In this document: positions 1 through 12,333 of the stretch, piece by piece | Layout of the letters: every line of letters begins with the position of its first letter | Position numbering within the stretch: the first letter of the stretch is position 1 | Assembly (NCBI GenBank): GCA_002869005.1 | Contig: PKTU01000064.1 | Span: 3,765-41,789, forward strand | Reading direction: 5' to 3' | Source of the DNA: Deltaproteobacteria bacterium | GTDB taxonomy: Bacteria > Desulfobacterota > Deferrisomatia > Deferrisomatales > BM512 | DNA length: 38,025 bases | The notes under the pieces: generated by a model | Database searches by the model: none | What the model was told of the DNA's origin: nothing | Seen by the model: the letters and a program-made list of their open reading frames with translations, nothing else | Position numbers and translations under genes: made by a program

Positions 1-102
1 TCCCGGCTCCGGCTGCGAGATGGTTTCAGGCCCTGAAACGCACCCCGACGCCAGCAGAGCGGTTGCCAGAATAGAAAAGTGTATTTTGAATTTAAGAATC
101 AA
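1..102 (-). CDS. Putative lipoprotein, N-terminal fragment cut by the window edge
   Basis: Only the first 34 codons lie in the window. Reading from a TTG at 102-100, the peptide begins MILKFKIHF, followed by a hydrophobic stretch and ALLASGC. This is a lysine-bearing n-region, a short h-region and a lipobox ending at Cys21, as expected of a signal peptidase II substrate. The mature part then starts VSGPE and turns proline-rich. The TTG overlaps the stop of the upstream CooT-like gene as TTGA, and an AAGG sits six bases before it, which supports this start and translational coupling. The function of the mature protein cannot be seen. It is probably the third gene of a short operon with DUF3842 and the CooT-like gene, so a shared envelope or metal-related role is possible but is inference only. 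Confidence 0.6.
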   Translation of the reverse strand, partial: MILKFKIHFSILATALLASGCVSGPETISQPEPG

Positions 103-299
103 TTGGCCGCCTTGAGGACAATTCTATGGCCGGAGAGATTTGCTACATCAAAGGTAGCTTTTACTATACGCTGCTCTCCGAAAATATTCTGTAAAAAGAG
201 CCCCCCGGTCTCCTCGTCAGGGCGGATGATGCAGACATCTTCTAAAAGGAGTTCTTCATCATCGCCGCCGCGTTTCAAAAACACTGCCGCTTCACACAT
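99..299 (-). CDS. CooT-family small (nickel-binding type) protein
   Basis: A 66-residue protein starting MCEAAVFLK, with a conserved-looking NIFGEQRIVKA segment near residues 41-51 and a C-terminal HRIVLKAAN. This matches the CooT/predicted RNA-binding small protein family. In characterised CooT, a homodimer binds Ni(II) through Cys2, and that cysteine is present here. A longer reading that adds six residues is possible, but the start at 299 is preferred. It puts Cys at position 2, it is preceded by GGAG, and it overlaps the end of the DUF3842 gene by eight bases. The downstream lipoprotein starts on this gene's stop codon. No carbon monoxide dehydrogenase genes are in the window, so a nickel-delivery role rests on the family alone. 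Confidence 0.75.
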   Translation of the reverse strand: MCEAAVFLKRGGDDEELLLEDVCIIRPDEETGGLFLQNIFGEQRIVKATFDVANLSGHRIVLKAAN

Positions 300-726
300 T
301 TTCCACTCCGCTATCAAAAAAACAGCGCTTTAGTTCACCCACAAGTTTGTCGATAAGGTGGGGGAAAGGTACCGACGTATGCCCAGCCAGGGTGATGCCG
401 TCAATCCGGAGAGGCAGAAGAAACTTTCTGGCAGGCGAAAGTAAAAGCGCTTCCGCTATCTCAGGAGTTACCTCGCCCATCATCTGGTGTGGTGCTATTA
501 TGGCGAGCGCTCCAACTATAGCGTCGACCTTCGGGGCCGTGACCTTAATGGCGTTCGCCCCTGAGGCACCTTTATTTGCGCGCGCCTTCATCATCGCCTG
601 CGTTGCGACTGCGTTGGTACCGAGGGCGACAATATCTACCTCGGGGGGCAACTCCTCCCTGAGACGGCGCACGATGTGGCTGCCAATTCCGCCGCCCTGG
701 CCGTCTATAACGGCTATTGTCACCAT
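292..726 (-). CDS. DUF3842 family protein
   Basis: A 144-residue protein resembling the DUF3842 family. Residues 1-30 form a beta strand followed by a glycine-rich loop (IDGQGGGIGSHIVRRL), the look of a nucleotide-binding Rossmann-type or ParA-like N-terminus, although the lysine of a P-loop is missing. A middle segment, ARANKGASGANAI, and a C-terminal GHTSVPFPHLIDKLV follow. No catalytic function is established for the family. The start at 726 has a strong GGAGG six to seven bases upstream. Its last codons overlap the CooT-like start (ATGTGTGA), so the two are almost certainly co-translated. It is divergent from pilB, with 77 bp between them. Family assignment is fairly sure; the biochemical role is unknown. 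Confidence 0.75.
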   Translation of the reverse strand: MVTIAVIDGQGGGIGSHIVRRLREELPPEVDIVALGTNAVATQAMMKARANKGASGANAIKVTAPKVDAIVGALAIIAPHQMMGEVTPEIAEALLLSPARKFLLPLRIDGITLAGHTSVPFPHLIDKLVGELKRCFFDSGVENV

Positions 727-803: not shown

Positions 804-2597
804 TTGGCTGAAGAAGCCCCTATGGGCGCGGCGGCGAGGAGCCTGACCCTGGATATGGCCCTGGCCGCACTTGTTGAGGATGGGCTTTTAAGTGACCTTC
901 AGGCCAAGTACGTGAGGGAGCGCCGGAAAATTCAATCCGCCAAACTTGCAGCCCAGCGCTCCGCCGTGGAAGCTGAGAGCCCGGTCTCACTAATACAATC
1001 TTTTGGGCTCACCCCTCCCGGCCGCGAGAAAGAACCTCTGGAAGGTGGCGAAATTGTAGCCTCCATCTCCAAGCGCCTAAGGATTCCCACCATTGAGATA
1101 GACCCGCTAAAGCTGGACAGCGAGGCGATAGTGAGGTCATTGCCCCGAGCCTACGCCTTCAAACACGCGGTGCTGGTCCTAGACCCCAAAGCCCGGCCCG
1201 CGCCAGTCGCGGTCGCAGACCCCCTCGATCAGGAGGTGCTGGACACGGTAAGGGCTAAGCTGGGCGCGTCACTCATCGTTTATATTGCGCCGGCCGCCGA
1301 GATACTACATCTCATAAAGGAGATTTACGGTTTCAAGAACTCGGTGGCGGAAGCTGAAAAGGACCTCGCAAAATCACCGGACATACAGAATCTGGAGCAG
1401 TTTTTCTCCATGCGCTCCGACGCGGACCTGGATGCAACCGACAGCCACATCGTCCGCGCCGTGGACCATCTCTTCAGATATGCATTTGACCAACGTGCAA
1501 GCGACATACATATAGAGCCAAAAAGAAGTGAAGCGGTTGTCCGCTTGAGGATCGACGGGGTGCTGCACACTGCGCACAGGTTCTCCAGAAGGGTACACTC
1601 CGCCATCACCTCACGCCTGAAAACCCTTGCCAGGATGGACATTGCAGAAAAACGCATCCCGCAGGACGGCAGGATTAAGACCGAATACGAGTCGACTAAG
1701 CTGGAGATGAGGGTATCGACCCTGCCTGTGGCGTTCGGCGAGAAGGTGGTCATGAGAATCTTCGACCCCCTCCTCCTTGAGCAGGACCTCTCGCAGCTTG
1801 GGCTTTGGGGAAACGATCTCCGGCTCGTGGAGAGCTTCCTCGCCCGCCCGCACGGCATATTCCTCGTCACCGGCCCAACTGGTTCGGGTAAGACGACCAC
1901 CCTCTACACAGCGCTGAAAAAGCTCTCCACGGATGAGTTCAACATCTCCACCGTAGAGGACCCGATTGAGAACATATCTCCTGAGTTCAATCAGGTTGCG
2001 GTGCAGCCCGGCATCGGCCTCACCTTCTCAAGCGCTCTACGGACGCTCCTAAGGCAGGACCCCGACATAATAATGGTGGGCGAAATACGCGACAGTGAGA
2101 CCGCCAAGATGGCTATTCAAGCGGCTCTCACAGGCCACCTCGTCCTATCCACCCTGCACACGAATGACGCCCCCGGCGCCGTTAACCGCCTAATCGACAT
2201 GGGCGTGGAGCCCTTCCTCCTGGCGTCAACGCTTGTTGGGACCATGGCCCAACGCCTCGTGAGGAGCCCTTGCGGCTACTGCGCTAAAGAGGTCGTCATC
2301 CCCGCCCACGAGGCGGCTATGCTCGGGCTACCGGAGGATACCGTCATAAAACTGGGCGAAGGGTGCCCCAAGTGCCGCCAAACCGGCTATATTGGCAGGA
2401 CCGGTATCTTCGAGGTCATGCCAATAACTAAAGAGATTGGCGACGCGATACACGACAAGGCGACTACCGGGCGAATAACCGAGATCGCGATAAACGCCGG
2501 GATGAAGACACTTTTAAGTTCCGGCGCCGAAAAGGTGGCCGCAGGAGCGACGACCCCCGCCGAGGTACTTCGCCACACCTTCGTTGAGGAAAAGTGA
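804..2597 (+). CDS. pilB: PilB/GspE-type assembly ATPase
   Basis: The hexameric cytoplasmic ATPase that powers assembly of type IV pili or type II secretion pseudopili. The 597-residue length is normal. An MshEN-like N-terminal region (about residues 60-170) precedes the secretion ATPase core. Walker A GPTGSGKT lies at 357-364, the Asp-box/Walker B DPDIIMVGEIRD at 419-430, followed by the His-box region LTGHLVLSTLHTND. The zinc tetracysteine characteristic of PilB/GspE is complete (C490, C493, C521, C524). The start is a TTG, chosen because AAGGAG sits seven bases before it; an ATG six codons later has no comparable site. It is the first gene of a block of minor pilins. No platform protein (PilC/GspF) or prepilin peptidase is nearby, so the rest of the machine must lie elsewhere. 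PilB versus GspE cannot be settled from sequence alone; the PilV/PilW/PilX neighbours favour PilB. Confidence 0.9.
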   Translation: MAEEAPMGAAARSLTLDMALAALVEDGLLSDLQAKYVRERRKIQSAKLAAQRSAVEAESPVSLIQSFGLTPPGREKEPLEGGEIVASISKRLRIPTIEIDPLKLDSEAIVRSLPRAYAFKHAVLVLDPKARPAPVAVADPLDQEVLDTVRAKLGASLIVYIAPAAEILHLIKEIYGFKNSVAEAEKDLAKSPDIQNLEQFFSMRSDADLDATDSHIVRAVDHLFRYAFDQRASDIHIEPKRSEAVVRLRIDGVLHTAHRFSRRVHSAITSRLKTLARMDIAEKRIPQDGRIKTEYESTKLEMRVSTLPVAFGEKVVMRIFDPLLLEQDLSQLGLWGNDLRLVESFLARPHGIFLVTGPTGSGKTTTLYTALKKLSTDEFNISTVEDPIENISPEFNQVAVQPGIGLTFSSALRTLLRQDPDIIMVGEIRDSETAKMAIQAALTGHLVLSTLHTNDAPGAVNRLIDMGVEPFLLASTLVGTMAQRLVRSPCGYCAKEVVIPAHEAAMLGLPEDTVIKLGEGCPKCRQTGYIGRTGIFEVMPITKEIGDAIHDKATTGRITEIAINAGMKTLLSSGAEKVAAGATTPAEVLRHTFVEEK

Positions 2598-2626
2598 CCC
2601 GGCTGGGATTTGGCTCGGAGATGTTA

Positions 2627-2632
2627 TATAAT
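2627..2632 (+). promoter_or_regulatory. Possible -10 element before fimT
   Basis: A perfect TATAAT lies in the 110-base gap between pilB and the fimT-like gene. No convincing -35 element is at the right distance: TTGGCT at 2610-2615 is only 11 bases away. If functional, it would allow the pilin genes to be transcribed separately from the ATPase gene. Confidence 0.25.
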
Positions 2633-2707
2633 TCGTTGCTTGTGACTAATATGGGCCTGTTTTAACCAGTCCTAATTAAATAGCCCAGCAAGAAGAGGAT
2701 CGGTTGA

Positions 2708-3334
2708 ATGTTATTTACATTGAGCGCTAAACGGAAAAAGGGCTTTACACTTGTAGAGCTAATGATAACGGTGGCCGTTATTGCAATACTGGCACTAGTA
2801 GCAGCACCCGGCCTCTTCATATACATACCGACTTACAAGGTAAACTCGGCTACAAAGACGCTCACCTCACAGCTTCAGCTCGCTCGCGCGGAGGCAATTG
2901 CAAAGAACCTGGATTACAGGATAAGGATCGACCAGGGCGGGCAAACGCTCTTCGTTGAGAGGATTGAGGACGACAAATCAGTCACGCTGATTAAGAAGTA
3001 CCTCTTTGAGCTTACCGGCCGAACCAACCCGGACTTTCCCGGCGTAAAGGTAAATCGCCCGAGCGGAACAACCTTTCCGCCCCAATCCACAACGGAAGAG
3101 GATACCGCGGCGGTGGCCTTCGGCGTGCCGGGCGGCTCCGCCGTATACAATCATCTGACCTTCAAGCCAAACGGAATCAGCAACTACGGCGGAGAGTTGT
3201 ACCTTACCCACAGCTCAAACACCGAGCTTTACAACACACGTGCCGTACAGGTGCAGCGCGCCGGCATAATAAGAGCATTCAAATATACGCCGCCGGATAC
3301 CGATGGCGGTGATTACAAGTGGGAGGGGTTTTAA
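2708..3334 (+). CDS. FimT/GspH-like minor (pseudo)pilin
   Basis: A 208-residue prepilin-like protein. The short basic leader ends KRKKG at residue 12, followed by FTLVELM and a hydrophobic helix of about 20 residues. That is a class III prepilin signal with Gly-1, Phe+1 and Glu+5. The following segment, SATKTLTSQLQLARAEAIAKN, is typical of FimT/GspH, in which the N-terminal helix continues into an amphipathic region. The rest is a predicted globular C-terminal domain (NHLTFKPNGISNYGGELYLTH), also GspH-like. It is expected to be processed by the prepilin peptidase and held in the inner membrane as part of the pilus-initiating complex. GAGGA precedes the ATG by eight bases. The next gene follows its stop directly. 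Confidence 0.82.
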   Translation: MLFTLSAKRKKGFTLVELMITVAVIAILALVAAPGLFIYIPTYKVNSATKTLTSQLQLARAEAIAKNLDYRIRIDQGGQTLFVERIEDDKSVTLIKKYLFELTGRTNPDFPGVKVNRPSGTTFPPQSTTEEDTAAVAFGVPGGSAVYNHLTFKPNGISNYGGELYLTHSSNTELYNTRAVQVQRAGIIRAFKYTPPDTDGGDYKWEGF

Positions 3335-3973
3335 ATGAACCGCAGGGGTTTCACCCTCATAGAGGTGCTTGTCGCGCTCGTGATCCTGCTTATAGGGCTC
3401 CTGGCGGTGATCCAGCTTTCACTAGCCTATATCAACGCAAACACCTTCAACCACATGATGAGCGAAGCCACTATCCTAGCCCAGGAAAAGATGGAAGAGC
3501 TGCGCAGCTACGCGAGGAGCGACCGCGCGGACAGGTACTCCGCCCTCGACTTCGACTACCTCACAAGCACGGAGACGGACTTCACCTCCTTTGCCGAAAA
3601 GGACCTCTCCGGAACCGTTAAAGAGCCCCTTCTCATCGTCGACGGCTTACTCTCGGGCGGCAACGGCGGAACAAATAAGGTTGCACCCTGGAACCCCGCT
3701 TACGGTGAAACCGATGCAAAGCCCGACTATTTCGTACTATATGACGATGGGGCGCATGAAGACGGCGGTTCAGGTGATGGCGTCTACGGAACCACTTGGG
3801 ATGAAGAGGTCCTTGGCCCGGCAGGCACGACAGCCTTTACCGTTACTACTGCGTGGACCATTGAGCCTTTAGCGGCGGACTACGCGGAGCTGACCGTTAC
3901 ATCTAAATTCACAGACCGGACGGGAACGGAGCGCAGTGTGACCTTCGTCTCCCTCGTCAACAGGAGGCAGTAA
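3335..3973 (+). CDS. pilV: PilV-like type IV pilus minor pilin
   Basis: A 212-residue minor pilin. The leader is only five residues (MNRRG), then FTLIEVLVALVILLIGLLAV, giving a prepilin peptidase site with Glu+5 (residue 10) and the polar-free helix typical of PilV/GspI. The segment NHMMSEATILAQEKMEELRS matches the PilV/GspI region after the transmembrane helix. The C-terminal domain contains acidic DGAHEDGGSGDGVYG and ends in a predicted beta sheet. The ATG abuts the fimT stop codon with no gap, and a GGGAGGGG lies just upstream inside fimT, so the two are translationally coupled. It probably joins the FimT-, PilX- and PilW-like proteins in the tip complex. The symbol is by similarity. Confidence 0.82.
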   Translation: MNRRGFTLIEVLVALVILLIGLLAVIQLSLAYINANTFNHMMSEATILAQEKMEELRSYARSDRADRYSALDFDYLTSTETDFTSFAEKDLSGTVKEPLLIVDGLLSGGNGGTNKVAPWNPAYGETDAKPDYFVLYDDGAHEDGGSGDGVYGTTWDEEVLGPAGTTAFTVTTAWTIEPLAADYAELTVTSKFTDRTGTERSVTFVSLVNRRQ

Positions 3974-3975
3974 CG

Positions 3976-5919
3976 ATGCGCATGGATAGAGATCGCGGCG
4001 CAGTCCTCGTAACGAGCCTCCTGGTACTGGCGCTACTTTCGCTGATGGGCGCAGGCGCATTGATTAGCGCCACACTGGACACCCGCTCCGTAACCAACCA
4101 ACGCGTATCAAGGCAATCCTTCTACGCGGCGGAAGCGGCGCTGGACGTGGCCGTGGGCGATATCCTCGCGGAGTTCAGGGCAGGCAGGATCTATGAACCG
4201 GATGGAACCCCGACAGCGATAACGGCTCCCGTGACGGGCAGCGACTTCAACGGTTATACGATAACCTACCAGGTGGATCTGCCCCCCAACAGCGAAGACC
4301 CCACAGCCACTACTCCGCAGCCTATCGTATATTCGACCACGGAGAATCAGCGGCCGATAACCAACGTCTCCTACCAATACTTAATCACCGGGCGTGCTGT
4401 CTCCAACAACGGCACCGACAGAGAAGAGATAGTGGAGACTATAAAGATTCTGGAGCGGCCGGTGACGCAGTACCTCGCCTTCTATGAGGGCGATATGAAC
4501 TGGCGGCCCCAGCAAAGCTCATTCCTCTCCGTAGAGGGCGGCAGGGTACACGCCAACGGCGATATCTATATCGCCCCAAGGGCAGGGATGGAGTTCACCT
4601 ACGACCCCGCTCTTGACTCCAACGCCATAACAGCGACGGGCGACATTCTCTACCATCAGGTCCACTACACCAACGGCACCTCCGGTGGCGCAGGCGCGGG
4701 CAACGTGACAATCGCCGTCCCTGACGCGGGTGGGACAACCTCCACGGACGTTAACCTCACTGAAGATATACTCCCGGAGACAAGGGCAAAGGTCGAGGAC
4801 CTCTTCGCCTTCGGGCTCGACTCCATTGTGCGTACAGGCGTCGACACCCTCACCACAATCGACAGGGGCTCCATTCAGAGCGGCGGACGCTACGAGGATT
4901 ATTCTCTGGTTCAGGGCGCACTTCCCTTTGAGGCTGATGTGGACACCATACACATCACTAACGATGGCGGCGCCATATCAATTAGGTGCAGCATCGACGG
5001 TGCCTCGCCGGTCGATGTTACTAACGATATCCGAAACACTACCGACTTCACTGGCTGGTCATCGGCTGTGAGGGTCAATCCGGACGGAAACACGTCCACC
5101 TTTATACAAGGGTCAATAGTTTACTCTGTTGAGGACAAGCCAGCCGCCAACCCCGCCACTGTAGACCTGGATTACCCGACAACCCTTGAAACCAACGACC
5201 CCCGCGAGGGCGCGGCGGTGAACTTCACCGTCATCGACCTTCAGCGCCTAAGCCACTGGTATATGAACTACTACAACGGTGAGATGGGGGGATTTCCCAC
5301 AGGTGACAGAGGGCTCCTTATCTATGCCGAACGAACAAGAGGCGTAGGAGCGATAGAGGCGATCAAGCTCATCGGCTCATACAAGGGGCGGGAGAGAAAT
5401 CCGGCAATCGAGCCAACTTATGCTACGGTAACCGGCACCCTTGTAGTGCCCACCACCTTTGTGACACCTAACCCGGTATATATTGAAGGCGAGATAAACG
5501 CGACGAATTTACCCTTCGCAATAATCTCCGATGCCATCACCGTTCTCTCCAATGACTGGGGTGAGAAGCATTACGGAGTTGTAGCCGGTATTACAAGTGT
5601 CGACTCCGACGCAGTTTACAACGCCGCCTTTATAACCGGTAGGGAATCAACTACCGGCGGCGGCGGTGGCGTTGCCGAGGGCGTGGAAGACCTTATAAGA
5701 AAGCTGGAAAACTGGGATTTCAAAAAGCTTGAGACCAACGGCGCTTTCATAAGCCCCTGGTTCAGCAGTCACGCCACAGGGGCATACAGCTCCGGTCTCA
5801 CAAGCCCCCCCCTCTACTCGATAGCTTGGGACCCGGCTTTGAGGGCCGTGATGATCACAAACCCGCCCTACATACCCAAAATCTATGGGGTTGAGCGCGA
5901 GGCTTGGCAGGAAGAGTAG
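3976..5919 (+). CDS. pilX: PilX-like minor pilin with a long extracellular region
   Basis: A 647-residue protein with a PilX_N-type start: basic leader MRMDRDRG, then AVLVTSLLVLALLSLMGAGAL. The position corresponding to Glu+5 is threonine (residue 13). Loss of this glutamate is known in tip-capping pseudopilins such as GspK and in many PilX proteins. The motif SRQSFYAAEAALDVA, residues 39-53, is typical of the family. After about residue 170 comes a large secreted-looking region with EGGRVHANGDIYI around 185-197 and beta-rich repeats such as VYIEGEINATNLPFAII. It is much longer than Pseudomonas PilX, as is common in delta-proteobacterial homologues. AGGAGG lies eight bases before the ATG, two bases after pilV. 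It probably sits at the pilus tip. Confidence 0.8.
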   Translation: MRMDRDRGAVLVTSLLVLALLSLMGAGALISATLDTRSVTNQRVSRQSFYAAEAALDVAVGDILAEFRAGRIYEPDGTPTAITAPVTGSDFNGYTITYQVDLPPNSEDPTATTPQPIVYSTTENQRPITNVSYQYLITGRAVSNNGTDREEIVETIKILERPVTQYLAFYEGDMNWRPQQSSFLSVEGGRVHANGDIYIAPRAGMEFTYDPALDSNAITATGDILYHQVHYTNGTSGGAGAGNVTIAVPDAGGTTSTDVNLTEDILPETRAKVEDLFAFGLDSIVRTGVDTLTTIDRGSIQSGGRYEDYSLVQGALPFEADVDTIHITNDGGAISIRCSIDGASPVDVTNDIRNTTDFTGWSSAVRVNPDGNTSTFIQGSIVYSVEDKPAANPATVDLDYPTTLETNDPREGAAVNFTVIDLQRLSHWYMNYYNGEMGGFPTGDRGLLIYAERTRGVGAIEAIKLIGSYKGRERNPAIEPTYATVTGTLVVPTTFVTPNPVYIEGEINATNLPFAIISDAITVLSNDWGEKHYGVVAGITSVDSDAVYNAAFITGRESTTGGGGGVAEGVEDLIRKLENWDFKKLETNGAFISPWFSSHATGAYSSGLTSPPLYSIAWDPALRAVMITNPPYIPKIYGVEREAWQEE

Positions 5920-5974
5920 ATTGACGCGCCCTTGGCGGGCGCTGGCGGCATATAAATAAAGGCAGATAATGAGG

Positions 5975-6051
5975 CAGGCACCCACGGGGGGAAACCTGCG
6001 GTCTAACAGCGTGCGTAAAGTACGGCCTGAAGACCCACAGGAGGCGAGAAA
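5975..6051 (+). promoter_or_regulatory. Structured leader of the giant pilin gene, possible GEMM-like (c-di-GMP-I type) element
   Basis: The 132-base gap before the giant gene holds a candidate RNA structure. CAGGC at 5975-5979 can pair with GCCTG at 6025-6029. Inside are GGGGAAACC, then GCGTAAAG, then CGGCCT, in the order and rough spacing of the GEMM-I motif core (GGGCAAACC ... ACGCAAAG ... CGGCCT). A second short hairpin (CCTG pairing with CAGG, 6026-6041) would hide part of the AGGAGG ribosome site. Against it: there is no clear GNRA tetraloop, no full second helical domain, and the inner stem has a mismatch. GEMM switches are known upstream of pilus genes in Geobacter-like bacteria, which makes the idea reasonable but unproven. 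Confidence 0.25.
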
Positions 6052-9000
6052 ATGAACTCGGCGCAAAAGCAGCGCAATTCCAAAGGCATGACGCTGATCG
6101 AGCTTATGATCGCTATGGCGATTGGGCTCATCTTAATAGCCGGTATATGGCAGCTCTTCACTTCGCAGCAGCAGAGCTATTCAATTCAGGACGAGACCGC
6201 GAAGATGCAGCAGCGGGCCAGGGTCGCCGAGGATTTTCTCCTCAAAGCTATCCAGCAGGCGGGGGCGGTTGCCGAGCGTGACGATGTTGTCTCGATGCTT
6301 GGGCGCCCTATCATGGCGGCCGGCGACCACTTTATAGCCGTCCAGTTTGACGACCCTCATGGCGAAACACCCAACGTGGTGTCAAATGAAGAGATAGCAA
6401 TTTTCGCCGTCTCAAAAGAGACCGGTGCCGCCAAGGAGATAATAACGATCCCTGTGGCCTTCGATCAAGATGGCGACGGAACGGTTGAAGTCGGCGAGCA
6501 ATTTGACGTTGATGTAGATCTATTTCTGGATGGCCCTCCCTACAACCTCTACCGCTACACCCCCGACAACGCGAACCCCACAGGGACAGCACCATACAGA
6601 GAGCTTATCGCCACTAACGTGGACAACTTGGTTCTCAAATATTACGACAAAAACGGTATCCGCATACCCTCCGACCCAAACACGAAAAAGCCTCTGGATA
6701 TGCCCTACGAGCTTACCAATACGGGAGAAAACCCCGAGGTCTCATTGATCCAGACGGTTGAGTCGGAGATAGTCCTAAGGGCGGAAAAGAGGGACCCTAA
6801 GTTCTCGGAGGAGTACCCTGTAGAGAACTACTCCGTTGGCACCTATGATGCCTCGGGGAACCCCCGCTCAGGTTTTACATTCGGTGGAACCGGAGATGGC
6901 GACGCTACGCTGAACGCTCAGTACAGGCGCAGAACATACAAATCCCGTTCGGCATTAAGAAACCTCGCCACCAACAACTGCGGCACAATCTCCCTTGAGC
7001 CCGACGGAATCCCTATATGCCCCGACGGAGTCACCCTAAAAGCCACCGTCAAGGATGGCGACAACAACCTCGTAAGCGACGCCACAACGGTAACTTTTGA
7101 CATCTTGAACCGGGACCCAACAGCTGCCGACCAACCATCCCTCTCTCCAACGGTAACCACTACTAGCGGAGGCATTGCCACTACGGTTTTATCCTACGAT
7201 GGCCCCGCGAGGGCTTTTATCGTCGAAGCCGCAGCCAAGGTGGATTGCGGTGACGCGGGCGAAGTTACGATATACGCCACCTATACGGTGAACTTCCTCC
7301 CCGGCGAACCGACAAATGTTTATGTAAATTTCGTTGATCACGATTACAGGTCAGCTACGGTCGAGCTGGATGTCCCTCCCTATAGGGATGGCCTGGCCGA
7401 CCCCATGACCACCTGCTACGACGACAATTACATCTTCAGCGCAAAGGTAACCGACGCCTGCGGCAATGAGGTCGCGCCAAACAACGACTTCAAGTTCAGC
7501 GTTTACGATGATTTTGGAAACCAGGTCGGGAAGATGTACAACACGTTGGATAATGGCGCTGCGGCTACTCCGCGATATGACCACACCGAATCGGGCGCCA
7601 CAGTCAACTTAACCCAATCCTTCGAGTATTTTTCGGTTTCGGGTCCGAAAGCCTGGATAGACCCCTCTGTAACCACCCCGGACCCTGAATTTGGATTTTT
7701 CAACCTGAATGTCTACCCGGATGGCGGCGTACTGCCTGCTTGGGTAAAGCTTTTTCACTTAGGTGATTACGGCGCTTCTACTCCCATAGCGCCGGTAGAT
7801 GACCATATTTTTGCGTCAAACCGGATACACCTCTACCCTTGGGCGCCAAACAGCTACAATATGCTCGAAGACAATATTAGCGGGCAGCAATCGGAAGATT
7901 GCGAGCTATACACAGACAGGCTCTTTGCCTCCCTAGAGGTTCTGGATTGCAACGGCAACCGTGTCTACAACACCAACACCCCTCAAGACAAGGGCAGGGT
8001 GAAGAGCACTTTGCCGGCTCCTGCGTCCGGGTATTCCATGCTGGCGGATCTGCAAACTTCACCCAGCATCCCCAACGACCAGCGCGGTGACCTCTACACG
8101 GTCTTCTACCCAACAAATGAAGACACGACCGGTTATACCACCTGGGACCCCAACGATCCCCAGACCGGCTACGATGGTTATTATGCCTTCACAGATACTG
8201 CCGGTCTCTTTGACAACCCCGACTCATCTCCGATAAATCAGAACCCGGCTGACGCGCTATATCTGGACAACCAATACCAGGATGGCGCATACCGCGTATA
8301 CTACGACTCCATTTGCGCGGTGAGCCCCGGTGACTTTACCCCAGCCTCTCCTATGCGTCCTCCCTTCGACCTTACCCCCGTAGGCTACGCAGGTGCAACT
8401 ACCACCATCACCCCGGACGTACCTCCCTGTAGGGATTGCGGCGTCACTGTATCCCCAGACGTGGTCGCAACCTGCGAGGGTATTAGCGAGGTAAAGGTCG
8501 CCTTCTGCCAGCCGCAGTACCGCTTCGTGGAGCTTGAAATCATCGGAGGGAAAAACCCCTACTGGTTCTCCCACCCCGGGGAACTGGCTGGTGTGACTCC
8601 GACTGTTGCCCCCGTAACGGTCAACCCGACGAATCCGAGAAAAGCCCTTGTATTCACAATACCTGACCCCGATTATCCCGGCGATGACGAGCGCGCGGCA
8701 GCTTTGGCAAAGCTATCCATCGGAAATACGGCCACGGGTGAAACCATCACCATCAAAGCCACATCCGTTAAAGCAGATTCGATAGGAATAACGGCGGCAT
8801 ATTTCAAGCCATTGGTGACAGGCGGCTATGAGCTGGACTCTCAGCTGATAGAGGAAGCCGAGAGCCCCGCGTGGTCCTGTAACAATGACGGCACCCTGAC
8901 GGTTGACAACCTCTGCGAGAATTTCCAGATGTTCTATCTCGCGGACAATATCGTCAATCCCATAGTAAACGGAGGCAAATACTGCGCCTCCAACCTCTTC

Positions 9001-12000
9001 CAGATATATTTCCAGTTTGAGCACTGCTTTGACGGCAGCGATATGAACCTCGTCGACGGTCACCTGCCGACGCCCCTTAACGTTTATATGCTAGATGAAG
9101 TGGGGCAGCAGTACGATAGAGAGCGGATTTACTTCTACCCGATTACCTCAACGGGCACCGCAAACACAACATTCAGGGGAACTATAAACATGATCCCCTA
9201 CACCGCCCTTAAAGGCGTGCCCTACAGCGACTCCCTGGAGTACCCGGAGGGGCGTGGCTCCTCCATCTCGGTGCAGCCGTGGACAAACCATAACGACGGC
9301 GCTGATTCGTGTCCTGCCGACGATTGGAATATAACCCTCATACCGCCAATCCCCGTCTGCTTCCCCAACGCTATCACCTCCGGCGGCGGCGCGGCATGGT
9401 CCGGCAACTTCCTCGTCCACTGGGGCGACGTCGTTGTTCGCGGGCAGCTAACAGTGCCACTACTTAATAAACGCATCGAAAAGCGGATCGACGGCCAGTT
9501 CAACGGAGCGCCCTTCGGCGGCGCGAACAACACCGATCGCTTCGTCGATGTCTACGTAGGTCGCGCTGGAACGGGCGAGGTCAACGATGGCCTGATTCAG
9601 GGGGTCTACCCGACCTCTGACCCAAACTATATTCCAGGCTTCGTATACCAGCCATATAAGCCTGACGGCTACGGGAACTACTTCACCAACATCAGCCGCG
9701 CCAGGATAAGCGAGCTTATCGTACTGCTACAGTACGACCTGATGCGCGAGCTCGCGCTAAACCACAGCGAAAACTCCTACTGGTTGTCGGTGGATATGGG
9801 CAGCGCTGTTCCGGGGCTTTACAACCCTAAAACTAAAGTCCTGCTCAACAATATAAATGAACTGCTCAGCTTTCCGGACTCAAACCCCAACTATGATGGG
9901 GACTACGTCTTCATCGACACCTGGGGGCTCAAAAACACGGTGGCCGGCGGCCCGGCCTGGTTGCCCGACCAATCGATCACCGGCGAGCTTATTGACAAGA
10001 CCCCTGCAATCCACGACGCCAAAGCGGGCCAGGTATTAACCGACGCGCTGCCGCGGCATGAGATCTCCGGTGATTTTTACACCACGGGCATCATCTACGT
10101 CGCAGGAACGATGTCCTTCGGCGGCCTCGGCGGAACCACCCCCATAGTCGTGCAGACGCCTCCGGGGCAGGAAATGCACTATAAACACAATTCCATGAAC
10201 TTCACCGAGGCGGATATACCCGTCAGACCTGATCCGTCGGTGCCTAAGCTATCACCCAACCCGACGGTTTCCGTTCACATAAACGGCGCTATTTACTGCG
10301 ACGGAGAGTTCGCCGGAAGCGGCAACCCGCAGGTCTATGGCGCGCTCAACTCCGAGCGCGGCTACAGCGGTAACGGTAACCCGGAGGTCTGGTACAACTA
10401 CTCGCTCAACGAATCGGGCAGCCAGAACGCGCTGTGCGTCGAATGCTGCGCCCTTGAGGTCTCGCCGAGGGTCCTCGACCTGGGCGTGGGCGACTCCCAG
10501 CAGCTGACGGTAAAGGACTCCTACGGTGATATCGTTTGGCAGTCCTCCGACACGAACATCGCCACCGTCTCCTCAACCGGCTACGTAACAGCCCACAACG
10601 TAGGCGACGCACTAATCTGGGTTGTTGACGCGAACAACTGCACGCAGGCCATTCCCACCCGCGTCGCTACCGAGTGCGTAGGTTACGCTATGCAGCCGCC
10701 TGTTGTGCCGGAAGACCCGGTAAACGCACCCTTCCAGATATCTGATTTCAATGGCGACACCGAAATCCTCACGATAGTAAACAGCGACGGCGACCCCTAC
10801 CCCTTCTCCGACTGGGTGTGGACCGCCGACCCCGATCCGCTGGGCAATGACGTTGTAACGGTTACCCCCTTAGGGGAGGGCGTGCACACCGCATGGATAA
10901 CGGCGCAAAAGTGCGGCACTACTGTTGTACATGCTGAGGACTCTACGGGAATATGCGGCGGCATTTACGAGTCGATCGTAACGGTCTCTTCGCCGCTGGC
11001 TATCAGGCAGACGAGCCCGGTCAAAACGCGTTACGAGGTAGGCGACACAGTTACCCTGACCGCCAACGGAGGCAACGGCACCATACTCTGGGTCGCAAGA
11101 CCGGCCACCGCCGTCTCCTTCGATACGATGTCCGGAGAGACCGTCAACGTAACCTTCAACTACGCGGTAGACCCCGTCAGCATCGACGCTTACGACGAGC
11201 TAAACTGCGTTGCAGACATTATCGACTTCTACGTAGATTGCCCCGAACCAACCGTATCTACGGTGCATCCGCCCAACTTCTCAACGTGGGGTGAGCTGTC
11301 AACCAACGGAGTTAATCTATACTGGCAGGCGGAACCCTTCGACGACCACCAATTCGATCCGGCGGCACCTGCAACAGGGTTGGATGAGATAGATAGGGTC
11401 GAGTTCACCATAAGACCCGATCCCATGGGGATCTCACCGATAGTCGACTCTACGCTGGAGTACTGCGGCCTCTCCATCTCGGACAACTGCGCTCTTGACG
11501 CCATAAACATCTCCGAGTGGCCTGACGGCGATTACCTCCTTACGGCGACCGCATACACGAACTACACAGAACCGGAGATACTGTCAGGCTGCCCGGATGC
11601 TTCTTTACCTGTTGTCAGCGAGACGACGATAACGATCGACAACTGCCAGCTCGACTGGTACGACAACTTCACATATCTGGACCCGGCGTGGCGCTTCGCT
11701 TGCGTAGGGGGCAGCTGCTACTCCGGCAACTTGACGTTACAAACGATTGACGACGAGTATCCCTTGGGGCTGGGCGTCGTCGTCTACAACGACCCGACGA
11801 TAGGCGGGAGGATGTTCGGGCAGGCTACGGTCGACCAGAGCCTAAACGAGACCCTCGAAGGCGAGGACTTCGCAACGGCGGTGACCGCCACCGGCATGAT
11901 TGACAGAGATGACGCGGACGTCGGCACCTCAGGGCAGGGTCTCTCGGTAAGGGAGGCGCAGTTCGGCCCCTCCAACCACTTCACTGTGGTCGGTTATGCA

Positions 12001-12333
12001 AACCCACCCCTCTACCTAGCCGACCCAACGGCCAAGCTTGAGCCTCAGGAGCTGCACCTCAAGTACAATATAGGCGGGGGCGAGGTCGACAAACCTACAG
12101 GAATAATAGTCAAACCCCCATACATGATCCTGATAATCAGAAATGCAGGGGTGTTCTCCGCTTACTACAGGTATCCGGCTGACGCCAGCTGGACGGCAAT
12201 AGGCTCACTGCCCTATGCAATACCGGTGGGGACGCCGCTCTACGTTGGTCCCTACGTCGAATCTCAGAGCGACATCGACGCTGCCACCTGGGCGGGATTT
12301 AAGGACTTCACAATGCAATGTCTGATGAAATAG
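6052..12333 (+). CDS. Giant PilW-like minor pilin fused to a multidomain surface adhesin region
   Basis: 2093 residues. Residues 1-12 are a prepilin leader ending SKG; MTLIELMIAMAIGLILIAGIW follows with Glu+5, and residues to about 306 read as a complete PilW, ending in the usual family style (YRRRTYKSRSALRNLA). The remaining 1,790 residues are an extension. It holds Ig/invasin-like beta domains (about 310-430) and cysteine-rich DACGNEV and DCNGNRV type modules (to about 1100). A PilX-like region follows (about 1108-1460; SGNFLVHWGDVVV, SGDFYTTGIIYVAG, VHINGAIYCDGEF). A BIG2 Ig-like domain comes next (about 1466-1543; TVKDSYGDIVWQSSDTNIATV), then more Ig-like sequence. The C-terminus is a concanavalin/lectin-like beta sandwich (about 1866-2093). 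Normal PilW is about 300-400 residues. AGGAGG lies upstream of the ATG. Likely a filament-tip adhesin; the ligand is unknown. Domain edges are by eye. Confidence 0.8.
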   Translation: MNSAQKQRNSKGMTLIELMIAMAIGLILIAGIWQLFTSQQQSYSIQDETAKMQQRARVAEDFLLKAIQQAGAVAERDDVVSMLGRPIMAAGDHFIAVQFDDPHGETPNVVSNEEIAIFAVSKETGAAKEIITIPVAFDQDGDGTVEVGEQFDVDVDLFLDGPPYNLYRYTPDNANPTGTAPYRELIATNVDNLVLKYYDKNGIRIPSDPNTKKPLDMPYELTNTGENPEVSLIQTVESEIVLRAEKRDPKFSEEYPVENYSVGTYDASGNPRSGFTFGGTGDGDATLNAQYRRRTYKSRSALRNLATNNCGTISLEPDGIPICPDGVTLKATVKDGDNNLVSDATTVTFDILNRDPTAADQPSLSPTVTTTSGGIATTVLSYDGPARAFIVEAAAKVDCGDAGEVTIYATYTVNFLPGEPTNVYVNFVDHDYRSATVELDVPPYRDGLADPMTTCYDDNYIFSAKVTDACGNEVAPNNDFKFSVYDDFGNQVGKMYNTLDNGAAATPRYDHTESGATVNLTQSFEYFSVSGPKAWIDPSVTTPDPEFGFFNLNVYPDGGVLPAWVKLFHLGDYGASTPIAPVDDHIFASNRIHLYPWAPNSYNMLEDNISGQQSEDCELYTDRLFASLEVLDCNGNRVYNTNTPQDKGRVKSTLPAPASGYSMLADLQTSPSIPNDQRGDLYTVFYPTNEDTTGYTTWDPNDPQTGYDGYYAFTDTAGLFDNPDSSPINQNPADALYLDNQYQDGAYRVYYDSICAVSPGDFTPASPMRPPFDLTPVGYAGATTTITPDVPPCRDCGVTVSPDVVATCEGISEVKVAFCQPQYRFVELEIIGGKNPYWFSHPGELAGVTPTVAPVTVNPTNPRKALVFTIPDPDYPGDDERAAALAKLSIGNTATGETITIKATSVKADSIGITAAYFKPLVTGGYELDSQLIEEAESPAWSCNNDGTLTVDNLCENFQMFYLADNIVNPIVNGGKYCASNLFQIYFQFEHCFDGSDMNLVDGHLPTPLNVYMLDEVGQQYDRERIYFYPITSTGTANTTFRGTINMIPYTALKGVPYSDSLEYPEGRGSSISVQPWTNHNDGADSCPADDWNITLIPPIPVCFPNAITSGGGAAWSGNFLVHWGDVVVRGQLTVPLLNKRIEKRIDGQFNGAPFGGANNTDRFVDVYVGRAGTGEVNDGLIQGVYPTSDPNYIPGFVYQPYKPDGYGNYFTNISRARISELIVLLQYDLMRELALNHSENSYWLSVDMGSAVPGLYNPKTKVLLNNINELLSFPDSNPNYDGDYVFIDTWGLKNTVAGGPAWLPDQSITGELIDKTPAIHDAKAGQVLTDALPRHEISGDFYTTGIIYVAGTMSFGGLGGTTPIVVQTPPGQEMHYKHNSMNFTEADIPVRPDPSVPKLSPNPTVSVHINGAIYCDGEFAGSGNPQVYGALNSERGYSGNGNPEVWYNYSLNESGSQNALCVECCALEVSPRVLDLGVGDSQQLTVKDSYGDIVWQSSDTNIATVSSTGYVTAHNVGDALIWVVDANNCTQAIPTRVATECVGYAMQPPVVPEDPVNAPFQISDFNGDTEILTIVNSDGDPYPFSDWVWTADPDPLGNDVVTVTPLGEGVHTAWITAQKCGTTVVHAEDSTGICGGIYESIVTVSSPLAIRQTSPVKTRYEVGDTVTLTANGGNGTILWVARPATAVSFDTMSGETVNVTFNYAVDPVSIDAYDELNCVADIIDFYVDCPEPTVSTVHPPNFSTWGELSTNGVNLYWQAEPFDDHQFDPAAPATGLDEIDRVEFTIRPDPMGISPIVDSTLEYCGLSISDNCALDAINISEWPDGDYLLTATAYTNYTEPEILSGCPDASLPVVSETTITIDNCQLDWYDNFTYLDPAWRFACVGGSCYSGNLTLQTIDDEYPLGLGVVVYNDPTIGGRMFGQATVDQSLNETLEGEDFATAVTATGMIDRDDADVGTSGQGLSVREAQFGPSNHFTVVGYANPPLYLADPTAKLEPQELHLKYNIGGGEVDKPTGIIVKPPYMILIIRNAGVFSAYYRYPADASWTAIGSLPYAIPVGTPLYVGPYVESQSDIDAATWAGFKDFTMQCLMK

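Follow-up and report, generated by a model that had tools for sequence, protein, structure and literature searches.

DUF3842 and CooT are encoded by a real two-gene unit. We take this unit, with slightly more confidence than doubt, to be a translationally coupled nickel-handling unit for the maturation of CODH/ACS, in which DUF3842 is the dedicated partner of CooT. The Wood-Ljungdahl pathway has CODH/ACS as its key enzyme, whose nickel insertion is only partly understood. As a widespread and uncharacterised protein that goes closely with a CooT subtype and occurs in one acs operon, DUF3842 is a specific candidate for a missing step of this insertion. According to the accessible parts of two reports, CooT is already known in Wood-Ljungdahl gene sets and clade E/F CODH operons (PMC6344411, PMC13056359); what is new here is the proposed, undescribed partner, DUF3842, for the CooT nickel unit. 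A search of 5.39 million papers, light on subscription titles, found none naming DUF3842 or PF12953, and none that combined cooT, acsV and a gene cluster.

Gene arrangement in the window

The window is the whole stretch of 38,025 nucleotides that was analysed (G000:C150:3765-41789), from an assembly of 2.6 Mb in 192 contigs that is 92% complete. Its first genes run on the minus strand in the order DUF3842, CooT and gene 3, the last of which runs off the window (Table 1). The preliminary description of this DNA had reported three genes overlapping by 8 and 4 bases, and both overlaps were confirmed.

Table 1. Features of the DUF3842-CooT locus in the window
Feature	Position	Strand	Details
DUF3842 gene	292-726	-	144 aa; PF12953, E 2e-48, 164 bits (cut-off 28.5)
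CooT-family gene	99-299	-	66 aa, Met-Cys2-Glu start; PF10133, E 4e-18, 66 bits (cut-off 27)
8-bp overlap of DUF3842 and CooT	292-299	-	ATGTGTGA, from the sequence; TGA stop of DUF3842 inside the Met-Cys-Glu codons of CooT
4-bp overlap of CooT stop and gene 3 start	99-102	-	TTGA, from the sequence; 4-bp overlap also in G001, same genus
5' end of gene 3, predicted lipoprotein-type MltD-like lytic transglycosylase with LysM repeats	1-102	-	truncated by the window start and a contig N

Conservation of the DUF3842-CooT pair

In a sample of 395 genomes of the window's phylum, DUF3842 was found in 141 at E 0.001 and CooT in 231. The DUF3842 matches were over the cut-off in 138 genomes, with G384 added as the 138th, and the three genomes with sub-cut-off matches were counted as lacking DUF3842. 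All 138 carried CooT, compared with 93 of the 257 others; DUF3842 is nested within the CooT-bearing genomes, although this count, like the other association counts given here, takes no account of shared ancestry. Within families that included both kinds of genome, 13 of the 30 DUF3842-less genomes that could be placed (those with a printed family label) also had no CooT, some of them being incomplete.

The positions of the genes were compared for the 150 DUF3842 genes among the matches listed, which lie in 137 genomes; the CooT places were filled in for 48 genomes. CooT was the next gene downstream, on the same strand and within 3 kb, for 134 of these 150, and it lay no more than 120 nt from the matched ends for 127. 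Adjacency held in 126 of the 137 listed genomes and in 34 of 36 families. The recurring co-occurrence that the preliminary description had put forward for a neighbourhood survey was thus borne out. The 16 exceptions comprised nine in families 40/92, five second copies in genomes that have a pair as well, and two others.

The pair stays together while its flanks vary. Among the 54 pair loci tabulated (two others dropped out, and flanking genes were called with a simple script instead of a gene finder), the commonest upstream cluster occurred in seven and the commonest downstream cluster in 10. Neighbouring genes included parB (18 loci), parA (17) and one of the ispH type (15). The gene directly after the pair belonged to one cluster in 10 of the 54 loci; its scanned member (L104:7624-9342) encodes 573 aa with LytB (IspH) and UbiA-like parts.

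Across the 12 genomes of the window's class, DUF3842 was present only in the two genomes of the window's genus and CooT in 11. The window genome has a second CooT, which is unpaired and belongs to the other subtype (G000:C115:10073-10246). Given these two observations, the pair in the window's genus looks like an addition that may have arrived as a unit. The neighbours of the second CooT resembled, by eye, thiamine-synthesis genes and branched-chain amino acid transporter genes.

The overlap and translational coupling

When at most two pair loci were taken per family, the identical 8-bp overlap, ATGTGTGA, was found in 39 of 56. The codons ATG TGT GA(A/G), which specify Met-Cys-Glu of CooT, contain TGA in the DUF3842 frame, so that the overlap is an economical stop for DUF3842. 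The Cys2 codon was TGT in all 39 of these loci. TGC was used by 4 of the 17 remaining paired genes, by 5 of 21 unpaired ones, and by 5 of 13 scorable genes from a further 30 loci in genomes without DUF3842. Because this octamer is shared by 39 of 56 pair loci and CooT so regularly follows the listed DUF3842 genes, the overlap is beyond chance. Its persistence across families suggests that translation of DUF3842 and CooT is coupled.

The CooT protein and its subtype

The preliminary description had pointed to Cys2 as the nickel ligand of CooT-type proteins. This residue is present in the window CooT and was kept in 107 of 107 aligned rows, which had been trimmed to start at a Met-Cys pair, none being without one. 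A profile of CooTs including that of the window matched the solved CooT 6fan at E 1.4e-22 and matched 5n76, the CooT of Rhodospirillum rubrum, only at E 0.019. Like the window CooT, the R. rubrum protein belongs to PF10133 and starts with Met-Cys2, and it handles nickel for CODH. According to the available part of its description, it binds Ni(II) through Cys2 as a dimer, and CooT and CooJ are described as having unclear roles (PMC6006190). In that part it appears in a CODH operon with CooC and CooJ and without DUF3842 (PMC6006190), whereas the window CooT is paired with DUF3842.

Paired CooTs differed from those of genomes lacking DUF3842. Gln43 was present in 50 of 56 paired CooTs and Ala4 in 47 of 56, compared in each case with 5 of 38 rows from DUF3842-less genomes. 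These 38 rows came from 30 loci plus eight taken earlier and include seven repeats; 79 of the 93 genomes were searched. Among unpaired CooTs of DUF3842 genomes, Gln43 occurred in 9 of 13, including all five of those compared from families 40/92, in which DUF3842 is not next to CooT. When the paired label was mapped on a CooT tree, it required 10 changes, compared with 32.6 when shuffled (0 of 500 shuffles as low), although the tree was built on just 63 columns and its clustering is inflated by near-copies. As judged from these alignments, a CooT subtype marked by Gln43 and Ala4 accompanies DUF3842.

Association with CODH/ACS

Before ACS was counted, 17 weak matches were set aside. ACS was present in 124 of the 138 DUF3842 genomes and in 128 of the 257 others, an odds ratio of 8.9 before any correction for ancestry. 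Either ACS or a strong CooS match was present in 133 of the 138, and the remaining five genomes are 66 to 92% complete; the 24 DUF3842 genomes with a weak CooS match or none were picked by eye. CooT is itself tied to ACS (203 of 231 genomes with CooT, compared with 49 of 164 without), so that the link of DUF3842 to ACS may simply be that of CooT, with nothing added by DUF3842. ACS also occurs in many genomes that lack DUF3842, three of them in the window's own family, and thus DUF3842 is not required. A strict dependence on CooS was also ruled out: the window genome has ACS (E 1.6e-63) and yet only a weak CooS match (E 1.2e-6). It also has a NiFe hydrogenase. The NiFe hydrogenase large subunit matches in six other genomes (G081, G048, G193, G147, G175 and G018) each cross one TGA, which suggests selenocysteine forms.

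The link was much less apparent at the level of the locus. We scanned 61 DUF3842 loci of the window's phylum, up to 7 kb on each side, and found acsB in none of them. CooS-like genes were present in two, 2.7 kb (L096) and 2.6 kb (L138) after CooT, with matches of 726 bits and of 369 bits, the latter below the cut-off of 478. Two further loci, L120 and L121, held AcsV-like genes. At a locus of a genome without DUF3842 (L160, G096), CooT lay within 7 kb of acsC-, acsE- and acsB-like genes.

The Acetoanaerobium operon

Acetoanaerobium noterae (Bacillota) carries, on one strand, acsC-like, acsE, acsB, gcvH, acsV, cooT, DUF3842 and His-rich genes. The acsC-like gene is a CdhD/FeS gene, the His-rich gene encodes 115 aa, and AcsE and AcsV were over curated cut-offs. 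The order cooT-DUF3842 is reversed relative to the window. This is an independent placement of the pair in a CODH/ACS operon, in one genome. The locus (L255) was retrieved by a search of plasmid records and lies on NZ_CP154629.1, a 2.63-Mb record named plasmid pTPELB2 that is evidently the chromosome.

A similar arrangement has been reported for Clostridium autoethanogenum, in which CooT (nbp) and a His-rich hp lie beside the Wood-Ljungdahl cluster (PMC10230548). As in Acetoanaerobium, CooT thus stands by a C1-fixing cluster with a His-rich neighbour, and DUF3842 goes unmentioned in the accessible part of that report. There, loss of nbp and loss of hp each changed growth in rich medium, and no nickel effect was seen on deletion of CooT (PMC10230548), a result that counts against the nickel role proposed below.

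The DUF3842 protein

The glycine-rich loop noted in the preliminary description, D8-G9-Q-G11-G12-G13-x-G15, was conserved in 42 aligned members of DUF3842. The invariant positions in these members include D8, G9, G11-G13, G15, G36, N38, T42, N51, G84, E85 and K101, and none of the invariant or nearly invariant positions is Cys or His. Since no Cys or His is conserved in this way, DUF3842 is unlikely to bind nickel by itself; more likely, it would take up a phosphate ligand and have its effect on CooT or on the target.

Comparisons with other families gave few leads. In Pfam searches up to E 10, the window DUF3842 matched PF12953 alone, with no P-loop ATPase match. AlphaFold models from one and from two sequences were of low confidence (mean pLDDT 66 and 63). 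With such a low-confidence model, Foldseek returned nothing at E 0.001, and all VIA-align rows had Z of 5.2 or less. No significant match was obtained with hhalign against 50 profiles, and the sequence search of solved structures gave a single match, at E 0.66. A search for relatives in viral contigs and phages was uninformative. Two likenesses suspected by eye gained no support, both scoring no better by hhalign than unrelated profiles: CofD/YvcK (E 0.37; 4 of 8 CofD sequences usable) and FtsZ (E 0.13; 21 of 27 FtsZ sequences usable).

Proposed role and alternatives

DUF3842 lies nearly always before CooT and, in Acetoanaerobium, within an acs operon; for these reasons it is probably an overlooked nickel-loading helper for CODH/ACS. 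By analogy with the R. rubrum protein, CooT would be a small nickel carrier that holds Ni(II) through Cys2 in a dimer, with nickel as the presumed metal here too. DUF3842 would be cytosolic, would bind a nucleotide or similar ligand at its phosphate-binding-like glycine loop, and, in a putative complex with CooT, would control the loading of nickel or its release toward the enzyme. CooC, an ATPase for nickel insertion into CODH, offers a parallel in that a nucleotide-dependent role in nickel maturation is proposed for DUF3842 as well; the two differ in that DUF3842 matched PF12953 and no P-loop ATPase. The suggestion in the preliminary description of a metal-handling module gains support from Cys2, from the genome-level CODH/ACS link, from the Acetoanaerobium operon and from nickel-type transporter genes at 4 of the 61 loci scanned.

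We considered whether the pair instead serves corrinoid or cobalt supply, to the benefit of the pathway's cobalamin protein, or nickel and cobalt homeostasis in general, rather than nickel insertion into CODH/ACS. This is unlikely in our judgement, and it ranks first among the alternatives. The 61 loci contained CbiQ in three, FecCD in two and CobU/CobS in four. The CobU and CobS genes follow DUF3842 in four fetched loci of families 40/92 (L146-L149), downstream of parA-parB, a setting that fits cobalt or corrinoid no less than nickel; ExbB, ExbD and FecCD occur in L129 and FecCD in L130; and genes for CbiZ and a periplasmic binding protein lie nearby in L138. The neighbour of CooT in Acetoanaerobium, AcsV, bears the name of a corrinoid activation protein, and the AcsV-like genes of L120 and L121 point the same way. 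The nickel-type transporter genes mentioned above are of the CbiM type (L113, L127, L135 and L136), and NCBIfam names these matches cobalt transporters. However, the order in L127 and L136 (CbiM, two accessory genes, CbiQ, ATPase; divergent from the pair in L127) resembles that of the NikMLKQO nickel operon as given in the accessible part of its report (PMC11247825). Moreover, the characterised CooT binds nickel, as far as the available description goes (PMC6006190), and nearly all DUF3842 genomes have CODH or ACS (133 of 138).

A somewhat weaker alternative, also unlikely, is that DUF3842 is a separate cytosolic enzyme, for example nucleotide-dependent or like a hydrogenase maturation protease, whose gene has no more in common with that of CooT than a transcript and the hand-over of ribosomes. 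Many pairs adjoin parAB or ispH-type genes, as this would allow, and one DUF3842 has no CooT nearby: that of Subdoligranulum variabile (L256), on a 116-kb plasmid-labelled record (OY725837.1), where no CooT appeared in 16 kb of sequence, 8 kb to either side. The protease leads were all non-significant, namely TIGR00072 (E 0.046; 13.7 bits, cut-off 47.45), an hhalign match to hydrogenase maturation protease (E 0.018, probability 2.5%) and a VIA-align match of the low-confidence model to 1cfz (Z 2.9). Against a separate enzyme, the pair is kept together while its neighbours vary, its order is reversed in Bacillota, and the DUF3842-type CooT occurs apart from DUF3842 as well, in all 5 of the unlinked copies examined.

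We further put forward, as a speculation placed below both of these alternatives, that DUF3842 could be a nucleotide-dependent nickel-transfer factor that docks on the Gln43 and Ala4 subtype of CooT and drives the delivery of nickel to CODH or to the ACS active site, a third maturation route beside CooC and CooJ.

Gene 3 and the window surroundings

An N at C150:3764, directly before the window start, breaks the frame of gene 3. Extension of the contig, which had been proposed as a way to read the lipoprotein gene, showed that the remainder encodes an SLT domain and LysM repeats. The G001 copy of gene 3 is intact (574 aa), with a lipobox recognised by eye, and among NCBIfam families it matches murein transglycosylase D best (253 bits, cut-off 508). 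Based on this match and on the SLT and LysM content, gene 3 is an MltD-like cell-wall enzyme outside the conserved unit. The module of DUF3842, CooT and a lipoprotein, with its envelope component, that the preliminary description envisaged is therefore very improbable: the three genes overlap in the window and have the identical order in G001, but gene 3 is MltD-like and its place beside the pair is confined to the window's genus (2 of the 54 loci tabulated), so that the locus survey ruled out a conserved three-gene module.

In the window genome, the pair adjoins pilus-like genes as well as the lytic transglycosylase. These divergent, type IV pilus-like genes (804-12333, plus strand), named by eye, include a GspE/PilB-type ATPase and pilin-like minor proteins. 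One of the encoded proteins, of 2,093 aa, has by eye a PilW-type pilin-like start followed by a very long extension.
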